Below, piece by piece: positions 40,032 through 64,000 of a stretch of DNA of 64,000 nucleotides. Source of the DNA: Streptomyces fradiae ATCC 10745 = DSM 40063. Its GTDB lineage: Bacteria > Actinomycetota > Actinomycetes > Streptomycetales > Streptomycetaceae. A program made the position numbers and the translations under genes. The DNA is taken from assembly GCF_008704425.1 (NCBI RefSeq), contig NZ_CP023696.1:916501-980500 (forward strand), given 5' to 3'. Under the pieces are notes generated by a model. It made no database searches and had not been told where the DNA came from. It saw nothing but the letters and a program-made list of their open reading frames with translations. How positions within the stretch are numbered: the stretch's first letter is position 1; the number at the start of each line of letters is the position of its first letter.

Positions 40032-40106
40032 TGGTGGGCGATACTGGGTTCGAACCAGTGACCTCTTCGGTGTGAACGAAGCGCTCTCCCGCTGAGCTAA
40101 TCGCCC
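40032..40106 (-). tRNA. tRNA-Val (anticodon CAC), copy 1
   Basis: 75 bases with a complete cloverleaf. The acceptor GGGCGAT pairs with ATCGCCC, the anticodon stem CTTCG/CGAAG encloses TTCACAC, and the T-loop is GGTTCGAACC. The CCA end is encoded. A near-identical copy lies 784 bases away at 40816-40890. Confidence 0.97.
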
Positions 40107-40815: not shown

Positions 40816-40890
40816 TGGTGGGCGATACTGGGTTCGAACCAGTGACCTCTTCGGTGTGAACGAAGCGCTCTCCCACTGAGCTAATCGCCC
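40816..40890 (-). tRNA. tRNA-Val (anticodon CAC), copy 2
   Basis: 75 bases with the CCA end encoded. It differs from copy 1 only in the D arm (GCTCAGTGGGAGAGC instead of GCTCAGCGGGAGAGC). A TAATGT -10-like hexamer lies at 40909-40904 on the minus strand. Confidence 0.97.
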
Positions 40891-47902: not shown

Positions 47903-47975
47903 GCGGACGTGGCTCAGTTGGTAGAGCATCACCTTGCCAAGGTGAGGGTCGCGAGTTCGAATCTCGTCGTCCGCT
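47903..47975 (+). tRNA. tRNA-Gly (anticodon GCC)
   Basis: 73 bases; acceptor GCGGACG/CGTCCGC, anticodon loop TTGCCAA in a TCACC/GGTGA stem, T-loop GTTCGAATC. CCA is not encoded. Confidence 0.97.
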
Positions 47976-48010
47976 CGAACGTGGGGGATCTTCCCGACCC
48001 CCGCACTCCT

Positions 48011-48084
48011 GGTGGAGTGGCCGAGAGGCGAGGCAACGGCCTGCAAAGCCGTCTACACGGGTTCAAATCCCGTCTCCACCTCCA
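48011..48084 (+). tRNA. tRNA-Cys (anticodon GCA)
   Basis: Acceptor GGTGGAG/CTCCACC, anticodon stem ACGGC/GCCGT enclosing CTGCAAA, T-loop GGTTCAAATCC. The CCA end is encoded. Confidence 0.97.
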
Positions 48085-48085
48085 A

Positions 48086-48157
48086 GGACGATTAGCTCAG
48101 CGGGAGAGCGCTTCCCTGACACGGAAGAGGTCACTGGTTCAATCCCAGTATCGTCCA
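48086..48157 (+). tRNA. tRNA-Val (anticodon GAC), copy 1
   Basis: 72 bases; acceptor GGACGAT/ATCGTCC, anticodon loop CTGACAC in a CTTCC/GGAAG stem. It starts one base after the tRNA-Cys CCA end. Confidence 0.97.
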
Positions 48158-48186
48158 CTGAAACCGCTGGTAGCAGCGGCTTCCCC

Positions 48187-48258
48187 GCGCGATTAGCTCA
48201 GCGGGAGAGCGCTTCCCTGACACGGAAGAGGTCACTGGTTCAATCCCAGTATCGCGCA
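48187..48258 (+). tRNA. tRNA-Val (anticodon GAC), copy 2
   Basis: Identical to copies 1 and 3 except for the acceptor stem, GCGCGAT/ATCGCGC. Both changes (pairs 2-71 and 3-70) are compensated. Confidence 0.96.
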
Positions 48259-48306
48259 CGCAGTGCCCACGGATCCGTACGCACCGTCACGGATCGGTGG
48301 TCCCGA

Positions 48307-48378
48307 GGACGATTAGCTCAGCGGGAGAGCGCTTCCCTGACACGGAAGAGGTCACTGGTTCAATCCCAGTATCGTCCA
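48307..48378 (+). tRNA. tRNA-Val (anticodon GAC), copy 3
   Basis: 72 bases identical to copy 1 over the whole cloverleaf. Last tRNA of the operon. Confidence 0.97.
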
Positions 48379-61243: not shown

Positions 61244-61915
61244 TCAGGACGCGGTGCGGCCCCGGCGGGCGAGGAGCCGTACGGCTCCGTCGCCGATGAG
61301 CTGCACGGCGGAGACGACGACGATCAGGATCGCGACGGTGACGAGCATGAAGGTCGTGTCGAACCGCTGGTAGCCGTAGGTGATCGCCTTGGAGCCGAGT
61401 CCCTCGCCGCCGACCGCGCCGGCCATGGCGGAGTAGCCGATGAGGACGATCACCGTGGTGGTGACGGCGGAGACGAGGGAGGGCAGGGCCTGGGGCAGGA
61501 GCACCTTGCGGACGATGGTGGGGATGGAGCCGCCCATGGACTGGACGGCTTCCACCAGGCCGTGGTCGACCTCGCGGACGGCGGTCTCGACGAGGCGCGC
61601 GAAGAAGGGGATCGCGCCGATGGCGAGGGGCACGATCATCGCGGTGGGGCCGATGAAGGTGCCGACGACGAGCTTGGTGAACGGGATCAGCGCGATCAGC
61701 AGGATGATGAACGGCAGTGAGCGGCCGATGTTCACCACGACGCCGACGGCCTTGTTGACGGGTGTGTTCTGGAGGAGGCCGCCCTTGTCGGTGAGGACGA
61801 GGAGGAGGCCGAGGGGGAGCCCGCCGAGTACGGAGACGACGGTGGCCCACAGGACCATGTAGAGGGTGTCGAGGGTGCCCTGGACGAGCAGGGGCTGCAT
61901 CTCCGGCCAGGTCAC
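61244..61915 (-). CDS. metI: Methionine ABC transporter permease
   Basis: 223 residues from GTG 61915, overlapping the metN stop (GTGA). About five TM helices, with the EAA-loop motif EAVQSMGGSIPTIVRKVLLP and the MetI-typical VGGEGLGSKAITYGYQRF. Membrane channel of the MetNIQ importer. Confidence 0.94.
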   Translation of the reverse strand: MTWPEMQPLLVQGTLDTLYMVLWATVVSVLGGLPLGLLLVLTDKGGLLQNTPVNKAVGVVVNIGRSLPFIILLIALIPFTKLVVGTFIGPTAMIVPLAIGAIPFFARLVETAVREVDHGLVEAVQSMGGSIPTIVRKVLLPQALPSLVSAVTTTVIVLIGYSAMAGAVGGEGLGSKAITYGYQRFDTTFMLVTVAILIVVVSAVQLIGDGAVRLLARRGRTAS

Positions 61916-63081
61916 TTCGCGGCCTCCTCGGCGAGCGGGGTTGCGGTGGGGGCGGGGCTCCCGGTGGTGCCGGGGCCGTCGGCGGTGCCGGGGCCGTCGG
62001 TGGTGGCGGGACCGTGGGTGGTGGCGGTCGGCGCGTCGGCGCGGGTGGCGGGGGCGGGCGCGTCCGGGTCCACGACGGCGACCTGGAGGCCCTGTTCGCG
62101 CAGGAAGCCGACGGGGACGACGTTCTCGTCGTAGCGTCCGGGCAGCTCGATGCGCATGCGGCCGATCTGCCGGCCGCCGACGGTGTCCATGGCGGCACCG
62201 AGGATCGATATGTCGATGTTGTACGTACGGGCGAGCTGGGAGATCACCGGCTGGGTCGCGGCCTCCCCGTGGAAGGTGACGTCCACGACCGTGCGGTCGG
62301 GGCCGGTGGCGTGGCCGCTGACCGGGAAGAGCTCGCCGGCGAGCTCGGAGCCGGGGGTGGCCAGGAGCCCGGCGACGGTGCCGGACTCGACGACCCGGCC
62401 CTTGCGCATCAGGGCGGCCGAGTCGCAGACCGTCTTGACGACGTCCATCTCGTGGGTGATGAGCAGGACGGTCAGGCCGAGCTGCCGGTTGAGGTCGCGC
62501 AGCAGCTGGAGGATGGAGCGGGTGGTCTCCGGGTCCAGCGCGCTGGTCGCCTCGTCGGAGAGGAGGACCTTGGGGTTGCCCGCGAGGGCGCGGGCGATGC
62601 CGACGCGCTGCTTCTGGCCGCCGGAGAGCTGGCCGGGGTAGGCCCTGGCCTTGTCGGCGAGGCCCACGAGGTCGAGGAGTTCCAGGGCGCGGCGGGCGCG
62701 TTCGGCGCCGGAGACGCCGAGGATCTCCAGGGGCAGCTCGACGTTGTCCTGGACGGTGCGCGACGACAGCAGGTTGAAGTGCTGGAAGACCATGCCGATG
62801 CGGCTGCGGGCGCGGCGCAGCTCCTTGCCGGCGCGGTGGCCCCGGCCCGCGAGGGCGGTGAGGTCGGTGCCGTCGACCGTCACGGTGCCGGAGGTGGGGC
62901 GCTCCAGGAGGTTGACGCAGCGGATGAGGGAGGACTTGCCGGCGCCGCTCTGGCCGATGACGCCGAACACCTCGCCTTCGCGGACGTGCAGGTCGACGCC
63001 GTCCAGGGCGGTGACCTGGCGGCCGCGCGACTCGTAGACCTTGGTCAGGCCCTTGGTGGTGATCACAGGGGTATCCGTCAC
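61912..63081 (-). CDS. metN: Methionine ABC transporter ATP-binding protein
   Basis: 389 residues from GTG 63081; the GTG at 63066 (ITTKGLTKVY) may be the true start, because no good ribosome-binding site favours either. Walker A GQSGAGKSS, signature LSGGQKQRVGIARAL and Walker B VLLSDEATSALD are intact. The C-terminal NIL domain (about 270-345) is the amino-acid-sensing domain of MetN. A Thr/Pro/Ala-rich tail follows. First gene of the operon. Confidence 0.93.
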   Translation of the reverse strand: MTDTPVITTKGLTKVYESRGRQVTALDGVDLHVREGEVFGVIGQSGAGKSSLIRCVNLLERPTSGTVTVDGTDLTALAGRGHRAGKELRRARSRIGMVFQHFNLLSSRTVQDNVELPLEILGVSGAERARRALELLDLVGLADKARAYPGQLSGGQKQRVGIARALAGNPKVLLSDEATSALDPETTRSILQLLRDLNRQLGLTVLLITHEMDVVKTVCDSAALMRKGRVVESGTVAGLLATPGSELAGELFPVSGHATGPDRTVVDVTFHGEAATQPVISQLARTYNIDISILGAAMDTVGGRQIGRMRIELPGRYDENVVPVGFLREQGLQVAVVDPDAPAPATRADAPTATTHGPATTDGPGTADGPGTTGSPAPTATPLAEEAAK

Positions 63082-63306
63082 TGTCGGGTGCGCGGCGCGG
63101 TGTCCGCCGGGCACGGGGCATTCGTCGTTCCGACACGGGGGCGTCGAGGGGCGCCGACGGGGGCGTCGCGGCGCCGGGCGCGGCGGCCGCGGGGGCGGGG
63201 TGCGCGCGGGGGCGACGCGGTCCTTGACCGGCCGGGCGCGTACCGCCCCGGCTCCGGTGCTCCGCCGTCGGTCTCGCTTCGGGGCGCGAGGCTCGTCAGG
63301 GGCCCT

Positions 63307-63393
63307 CTAGAAGGCGCACATTCGACACATACAACGAGCACCGGGCGTCGTCATCGCCTCGGTCGCGGATACGCGGATGCTCGTCGTGGTCAT
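63307..63393 (-). CDS. Cys-rich leader peptide upstream of metNIQ
   Basis: 28 residues (MTTTSIRVSATEAMTTPG, then ARCMCRMCAF), ATG 63393 to TAG 63307. Three Cys and two Met codons lie in the last eight residues, as in Cys-responsive attenuator peptides described in mycobacteria. There is no ribosome-binding site; TTTACT at -12 to -7 suggests a leaderless message. It lies 226 bases upstream of metN on the same strand. Confidence 0.6.
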   Translation of the reverse strand: MTTTSIRVSATEAMTTPGARCMCRMCAF

Positions 63394-63667
63394 GGCGCCA
63401 GTAAAGCAGACGGGTCGGCGCGCCGATCCGAGCTGTCCGAATAGCGGACACGATGTGCACGGTATGCGGACTCCCGGACGGGTGCGCGGGAGGCCGCCCG
63501 CTGCCCGCCGACCCGCTGCGGCCTGCGGGAACGCGGGCCGGCCGCGACGGCGGGCGGAGGGCGCGCCCGAGCCGCGGCCGGCGCGGCCTGTGGTCAAGAC
63601 CACGCGGGCTCCCCGGTCGGGACCACGTGGGTGCGGGGGCGGCCACGGCCGGGGTTTTCGTCCGTAA

Positions 63668-63679: not shown

Positions 63680-64000
63680 ATGCTCAACGCCCTGACCCTC
63701 ACGGTGTCCCTCGCCGCGCTGGCCCTCGCCGCGTGGTGCGGTCTCGCCGCGTACCGGGACCAGCCGACGAAGGACTGGCACTTCATCGGCATGGCCGTGG
63801 TGACCCTGCTCGCGCTGGCCCAGCTCGTGGTGGGCGTGGTGCGGCTGGCGGGGGGCGGGGAGGCCGACGAGGGCACGGCCATCTTCGTGGCGTACCTGCT
63901 GGGCGCCCTCTTCGCGGTGCCCGCGGCGGGGTTCATGTCCCTGGTCGAGCGGAGCCGGTGGGGCTCGGCGACGGTCGCGGCCGGCGCGCTGGTGCTGGCC
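63680..64000 (+). CDS. Membrane protein, N-terminal part only
   Basis: 107 codons visible, open at the right edge. MLNALTLTVSLAALALAAWCGLAAYRD and TM helices at MAVVTLLALAQLVVGVVRL and IFVAYLLGALFAVPAAGFMS point to a small integral membrane protein of about four TM. Conserved next to metNIQ in streptomycetes as far as I recall. Function unknown. Confidence 0.8.
   Translation, partial: MLNALTLTVSLAALALAAWCGLAAYRDQPTKDWHFIGMAVVTLLALAQLVVGVVRLAGGGEADEGTAIFVAYLLGALFAVPAAGFMSLVERSRWGSATVAAGALVLA

Follow-up and report, generated by a model that had tools for sequence, protein, structure and literature searches.

A conserved leader ORF upstream of metNIQ in Streptomyces, probably responsive to cysteine

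The metNIQ locus and its leader

The metNIQ genes and the leader described below are located on the minus strand of the window, i.e. of the whole 64,000-nt stretch of DNA that was analysed. The features of the locus are as follows.

63435 to 63449, minus strand: palindrome GTCCGCTATTCGGAC, spanning −56 to −42 relative to the leader ATG and similar to NdgR sites
63400 to 63405, minus strand: −10 hexamer TTTACT, 6 nt ahead of the leader ATG
63307 to 63393, minus strand: leader ORF metL, 28 codons, MTTTSIRVSATEAMTTPGARCMCRMCAF plus stop (ATG 63393-63391, stop TAG 63309-63307)
63331 to 63387, minus strand: proposed fold within the ORF
63316 to 63333, minus strand: regulatory codons TGT ATG TGT CGA ATG TGC
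63273 to 63307, minus strand: post-stop element GAGGGCCCC (63307-63299) and hairpin CTCGC-GCCCCGAA-GCGAG (63290-63273), also present in three genomes of family f19
63088 to 63114, minus strand: hairpin GTGC...GCAC, just 5′ of the metN start
61912 to 63066, minus strand: metN, methionine ABC transporter ATPase, start GTG 63066, followed by metI and metQ

The three genes were named by their best model matches, the NCBIfam models scoring below their curated cut-offs and the Pfam domains above theirs. MetN matches TIGR02314 (E-value 3.2e-112, 374.9 bits, curated cut-off 499.7) and contains ABC_tran and NIL domains, MetI matches NF008049 with a score of 203.6 (cut-off 212), and MetQ has the domain Lipoprotein_9. 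The more likely metN start is GTG 63066 (VITTKGL...), with the SD-like GACGGA at 63079-63074, and not GTG 63081, because the latter is absent in several relatives and indels occur in the interval from it to GTGATC. With this start, 240 nt separate the leader stop codon from metN, instead of the 226 nt of the initial annotation, which implied a start at 63081. Directly before metN, a block, GCACTCGACAGTGACGGA (GCACCCGACAGTGACGGA in the window, 63074-63091), is strongly conserved in the genus. A divergent ORF on the plus strand (63680-64000), which starts with MLNALTLTVSLAALALAAWCGLAAYRDQPTKDWHF and apparently encodes a membrane protein, has the intergenic region in common with the leader.

The initial annotation had described a 28-codon ORF ending in ARCMCRMCAF, with no SD motif and a −10 element at a spacing typical of leaderless transcripts. 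The ORF is present on the minus strand at 63393 to 63307, the ATG follows TTTACT (63405-63400) after 6 nt, and a SD motif is absent; a consensus scan called no sigma-70-type promoter at the −10 site. The 97 distinct same-genus leaders (see below) have TTTACT, TTTAAT or TTAACT 6–7 nt ahead of the ATG, a uniformity that is partly built in, because leaders were chosen with a −10 filter; one leader missed by this filter (L117) has TTCACT.

In S. lividans TK24, a leader named metL (SLIV_29928; MSTTSDRTPATEATTTPGARCMCRRMCAF plus stop) is located upstream of metNIQ and was found to be leaderless by RNA-seq, according to the accessible sections of PMC8079986. There it is labelled methionine-dependent, a typical Rho-independent terminator is reported to be lacking, and the mode of termination is described as unclear. 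It is the same element, and one of our leaders (L097) encodes an identical peptide. The RNA-seq start published in these sections, which applies to that strain, also agrees with the earlier proposal that transcription starts at the leader and not downstream of it. The accessible sections deal with one strain and contain no conservation, CGA, Cys or operator analysis, all of which are analysed here; judging by titles and abstract openings, we found no further publication on this leader. The leader ORF of the window is real, and it is predicted to form the start of a leaderless mRNA.

Distribution of the leader, its upstream palindrome and related leaders

The first sample comprised the genome of the window (G000) and 60 genomes of the same genus, for 55 of which DNA upstream of the metN orthologue was obtained. 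The leader is present at all 56 loci. The other five genomes either had no ranked metN orthologue (G001, G022 and G044) or had the gene at a contig end (G008 and G050); G001 later yielded a leader adjoining metN (L093). A covariance model built on the 56 sequences (R1, threshold E≤0.01) matches 286 of 295 genomes of the genus, with a best E-value of 4.8e-31, so that the ORF is not due to chance, and the conservation upstream of metN that the initial annotation had named as a check extends throughout the genus. Seven of the nine genomes without a match show no metN at E≤1e-90, and the two others, again G008 and G050, have metN at a contig end. Adjoining metN genes are found at 48 of the 49 loci fetched for R1 matches (L074-L122); there is none within the short stretch of L110. 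G000 has one good copy, its other R1 matches having E-values of 0.6 or worse. A second genomic copy of TGYCGAATGTGY (L069) lies inside an apparent ftsH gene (named by eye) and was taken as chance.

In a class-wide draw, R1 matches 29 of 296 genomes, i.e. 28 of the genus and G534 of family f19. A second model (R2), which covers the last codons and the post-stop hairpin, was built from 51 of 96 distinct sequences, including L122 of G534. It yielded 42 strong matches (E-value 7.4e-12 or better) in 394 genomes of the class; the genus accounts for 39 and f19 for three (G534, 5.3e-13; G647, 9.3e-13; G670, 1.3e-15), and at least seven further f19 genomes in this draw have a weak match or none. G799, which belongs to another genus of the same family as Streptomyces, matches R2 with an E-value of 2.0e-16, and R2 found nothing in G772, G822, G846 and G857, from other genera of that family. 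The three f19 places and that of G799 all lie upstream of metN, with 65–84% identity; in the three f19 genomes the first part of the ORF differs and the Cys-rich tail is in frame. Weak R2 matches have E-values of 1.9e-5 or worse and are included in the count of 87 of 394 genomes at E≤0.05; for one of them (G413), the fetched stretch has neither a metN match nor the core motif. In family f3, all seven metN loci, from 14 genomes, carry a diverged leader (e.g. MIANTSSRMPAAAMAPGMMCCRFACRMCGC, −10 TATAGT), and R2 gives only two weak matches there. By the same criteria, the leader is absent at two metN-like loci in G077 and at one in G093.

A GTCC..GGAC palindrome is found 41–43 nt ahead of the ATG at 49 of the 56 same-genus loci; by pattern it is missing at four and out of register at three. 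None of the seven f3 leaders has it. These leaders (L058-L064) have a common upstream block, GTCTCAC...TGGAC plus GGTAA, unlike the genus palindrome. The palindrome of the window has the same form as GTCCGCCATGCGGAC, which the accessible part of an NdgR ChIP-seq study in S. coelicolor lists for one of 19 regions (PMC4340878); metN goes unnamed in the main text of that study. By hand count, 12 of the 15 positions agree with the published NdgR consensus. GTCCGCTATTCGGAC can be regarded as a candidate NdgR site.

Four leaders of the cis_reg_atten model NF042934 are above its cut-off in G000 (L132-L135). Their neighbours, named by eye, are an apparent cysteine synthase, sulfite reductase, thiosulfate sulfurtransferase and flavin reductase, i.e. 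three of the four leaders adjoin apparent sulfur genes and the other one the flavin reductase. They resemble metL in being short and in carrying TGT near the stop, this rare triplet being the final Cys codon in four of four; in contrast, metL is devoid of the VDLxR core found in all four. Of the four, the sulfite reductase leader alone is preceded by a full palindrome, GTCCGCGATGCGGAC, whose distance (−56) equals that of metL. Comparison of metL with NF042934 (a 19-position model, 27 bits) gave no match at E≤1, and a whole-genome listing for this model at E≤10 has 16 places, none of them at metL.

Conservation of the RNA and of the tail codons

For the 45 ungapped leaders among the first 56, the identities at the first, second and third codon positions are 88.4%, 84.4% and 91.0%. 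The values for metN, from the 22 stretches long enough to compare, are 95.8%, 95.5% and 74.0%. The third codon positions are thus the most conserved ones in the leader, so that it is the RNA, more than the peptide, which is under selection. Third positions are 94.0% identical in paired regions, with values of 82.9% for the loops and 91.4% for the tail.

In the proposed fold, 63387-63379 (ACGACGAGC) pairs with 63339-63331 (GCTCGTTGT), and this stem encloses hairpins at 63375-63364 and 63363-63340. In 78 distinct sequences, 94.4% of the cells of its 21 pairs are paired, vs at most 44.5% when the fold is slid along the alignment, and the covariation score is 0.087, vs at most 0.059 for the slid controls. 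Changes on both sides occur in eight pairs (27 cells); shuffles average 2.7, and none of 500 reaches eight. The control slid by −2, though, likewise gives eight such pairs (21 cells), and the window's leader transcript, taken as a whole, has ordinary stability (z −1.25, 12 of 100 shuffles being as good); we counted both results against the cysteine reading below. The number of further pair types is equalled by 60 of 500 shuffles, and four rows with codon insertions (L014, L018, L026 and L032) were kept, misaligned, in the test. RNAalifold returns the full fold for the 56 sequences alone and just nine pairs for the wider alignment, two of them in conflict with the named fold, which we likewise counted against that reading. 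Single-sequence folds of f3 leaders show a similar stem in the ORF, closed there by another sequence; L059 and L061 are the clearest cases. With these caveats, the predicted fold through the leader ORF is supported.

Downstream of the ORF, GAGGG is kept with either TGA or TAG as stop codon, followed by the hairpin with its nearly invariant loop GCCCCGAA. A GGGC:GCCC pseudoknot, both sides of which are nearly invariant, may possibly form. The Rfam search of the window, which included SAM riboswitches, the Streptomyces-metH and -metK RNAs and others, returned nothing but tRNA at the gathering threshold. The tRNA genes form a cluster of five on the plus strand (47903-48378), and two are on the minus strand (40035-40106 and 40819-40890).

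To describe the codon usage, 109 leader rows were reduced to 104 distinct leaders (97 of the genus and seven of f3), identity being defined as the same ORF plus 60 nt. L117 and L122, which failed the −10 filter, and L110, for lack of metN, were left out. The set leans towards divergent leaders, because the 30 added genomes were mostly picked for low model scores. The tail, i.e. the part after the PGA (or equivalent) stretch, contains two Cys codons in 32 leaders, three in 48, four in 19 and five in five. The corresponding numbers for Met are none in one leader, one in 17, two in 78, three in six and four in two; the leader without any Met (L053) has the tail RCRCCTCAR. Of the 309 Cys codons in the leader tails, 212 are TGT, vs 3 of 178 in the relatives' metN genes.

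CGA occupies codon −6 in 101 of the 104 distinct leaders; L112 has CGC there, L053 has TGC, and L055, whose block is displaced by one codon, has TGT. Codon −5 is ATG in 102 leaders, plus the shifted one. The metN genes of the relatives use CGA rarely, for 35 of 2060 Arg codons. CGA ATG is found at the same place in all seven f3 leaders, and the arrangement of CGA six triplets from the end, followed by ATG, recurs in two families besides that of the genus. Single Cys positions vary (RMRAF and RRMC variants) and one Met is almost fixed, which we counted against a role of cysteine. The frame, start, stop and Cys codons are kept while the length of the ORF shifts by whole codons.

Cysteine sensing, the output step and alternative readings

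On the basis of the sequence comparisons, metL is probably a Cys-responsive leader ORF on a leaderless mRNA, which controls metNIQ via ribosome stalling; its most likely benefit is increased sulfur uptake by cells that lack cysteine. When Cys-tRNA is short, ribosomes would stall at the TGT codons. The stalled ribosome would keep the ORF stem open and alter the folding around the stop codon, so that metNIQ is expressed. When cysteine is plentiful, the ribosome would finish, the ORF stem and the post-stop hairpin could form, and the output of metNIQ would fall. Methionine is convertible to cysteine, and therefore its import under cysteine shortage makes sense. We counted in favour of cysteine the two to five tail Cys codons in every leader, the TGT bias, the Met-free tail of L053, TGT in the NF042934 leaders and the palindrome at one of them, the codon-position identities, the spread of R1 matches, the leaderless start in S. 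lividans and the C-rich spacer after the leader.

The signal could reach metN through control of translation or through transcription that ends early in the C-rich spacer, possibly by way of Rho. A trp-type attenuator has an intrinsic terminator between leader and gene, and a consensus scan found no terminator-like site in 63000-63520. The spacer contains 0.46 C and 0.29 G; C is the more frequent of the two in 101 of 102 rows, duplicates included. For comparison, the values are 0.39 and 0.36 upstream (64 of 102) and 0.39 and 0.32 in metN (102 of 102), and the mean differences between C and G are 0.17 in the spacer, 0.07 in metN and 0.03 upstream. The C bias of the spacer is thus a matter of degree, because C exceeds G inside metN as well; it suits Rho without demonstrating it.

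In polycysteine leaderless attenuators, a stalled ribosome unmasks the ribosome-binding site of the next gene. The initial annotation had likened the leader to these mycobacterial systems, and the likeness holds for the layout; for the unmasking, modelling gives no support in the genus. Sections of PMC9031893 and PMC13236596 describe leaderless short ORFs with Cys codons upstream of sulfur-related genes, and the −10 spacing and the published S. lividans start place metL among leaderless short ORFs. In contrast to the mycobacterial ORFs, the Cys codons here are mostly interleaved with Met and Arg, and the ORF is under selection at the RNA level; the window (CMCRMC) has no contiguous run of Cys codons, and two adjacent ones occur in a few relatives.

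Unmasking was modelled thermodynamically with the Cys codons masked in silico, identical transcripts being collapsed and L113, in which no start was recognised, being dropped. In the genus, access to the metN ribosome site changed by −0.005 on average (n=96; up in 20, down in 23), and in f3 it rose slightly, by 0.030 (n=7; up in three, down in none). The same masking made the metN start codon less open, by −0.024 in the genus and −0.066 in f3. With an in silico ribosome at the leader stop, the region behind it becomes more open in 82 of 96 cases, as the overlap predicts. The Cys codons (TGTCGAATGTGCG) might pair over a long distance with the block at the metN ribosome site (CGCACTCGACA), an idea that looked attractive in the genus and was rejected for lack of covariation: by eye, one side changes and the other does not follow in L016, L029, L049, L051, L054, L055 and L056, and f3 keeps the Cys codons without the CGCACTCGACA partner. 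As the scan found no terminator and modelling did not support unmasking in the genus, we commit ourselves to Cys-responsive stalling as the probable reading and leave the output step aside.

The systems described in the accessible part of PMC1262725 (acnes; cbs in B. longum) are similar in that Cys codons lie near the stop and a terminator is not evident, and Rho was suggested there; the genes and peptides differ from those at metNIQ. According to the same part of that source, methionine operons are not preceded by a conserved RNA structure.

More speculatively, the leader may be a sulfur-sensing arrest element of a new type that combines rare TGT codons, the fixed CGA-ATG, the ORF fold, the post-stop GAGGG/GCCCCGAA hairpin and an NdgR-type operator; we hold this to be rather unlikely. 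CGA-ATG would then act at a set distance from the stop, the post-stop hairpin would possibly be part of a pseudoknot, and pausing on rare codons, not amino-acid starvation alone, would set the switch. One or more of the genome's other cysteine leaders would share the NdgR-type operator. A role of CGA as a sensor of 2-thiocytidine in tRNA was rejected: a search of this genome with NF007972 gave nothing at E≤0.001, and 11 of 14 control genomes match, including E. coli, with one above the cut-off.

Methionine is a less probable signal still. In a Met-responsive leader, as labelled for S. lividans in the accessible sections on metL, ribosomes would stall at ATG codons when Met-tRNA is short, in keeping with the position upstream of a methionine importer and with the nearly constant ATG at codon −5. 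However, the tail is down to a single Met in 17 of 104 leaders and to none in one, while Cys never falls below two. Moreover, the fixed Met lies in the CGAATG block together with the rare synonymous codon CGA, which is equally fixed, so that this Met may not be kept for methionine.

About the same low probability applies to a dual sensor, in which a shortage of either amino acid would stall ribosomes on the interleaved codons. The initial annotation had taken the interleaved Met codons to mean that Cys and Met supply could be read together, and the tails of 103 of 104 distinct leaders do contain one or more Met codons together with two or more Cys codons, both being kept in the seven f3 leaders as well. 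The Cys-only leader L053 and the single-Met tails stand against it, as does the fact that the most constant Met is the one within the CGAATG block. Dual sensing is possible and is not favoured here.

A ligand- or protein-binding RNA with an incidental ORF would agree with the conserved third positions, the pairing and both-side changes above shuffles and the nearly invariant loop, but is very improbable given the persistence of frame, start, stop and Cys codons through whole-codon length changes, the in-frame Cys-rich tail of the three f19 genomes despite their different ORF starts, and the lack of any Rfam family but tRNA at threshold in the window.

With Cys-responsive stalling as the preferred reading, what was already known is metL of S. 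lividans, and what is new is the spread in the genus, the selection on the RNA, the analysis of Cys and CGA codons, and the palindrome. The results raise the question of why the rare CGA stays at a fixed distance from the leader stop in three families. Labelled methionine-dependent in a single strain, this leader looks, across the genus, like a sensor of cysteine that has its own conserved RNA. Together with the four NF042934 leaders in the same genome, metL suggests a cysteine regulon in Streptomyces that is read by ribosomes.
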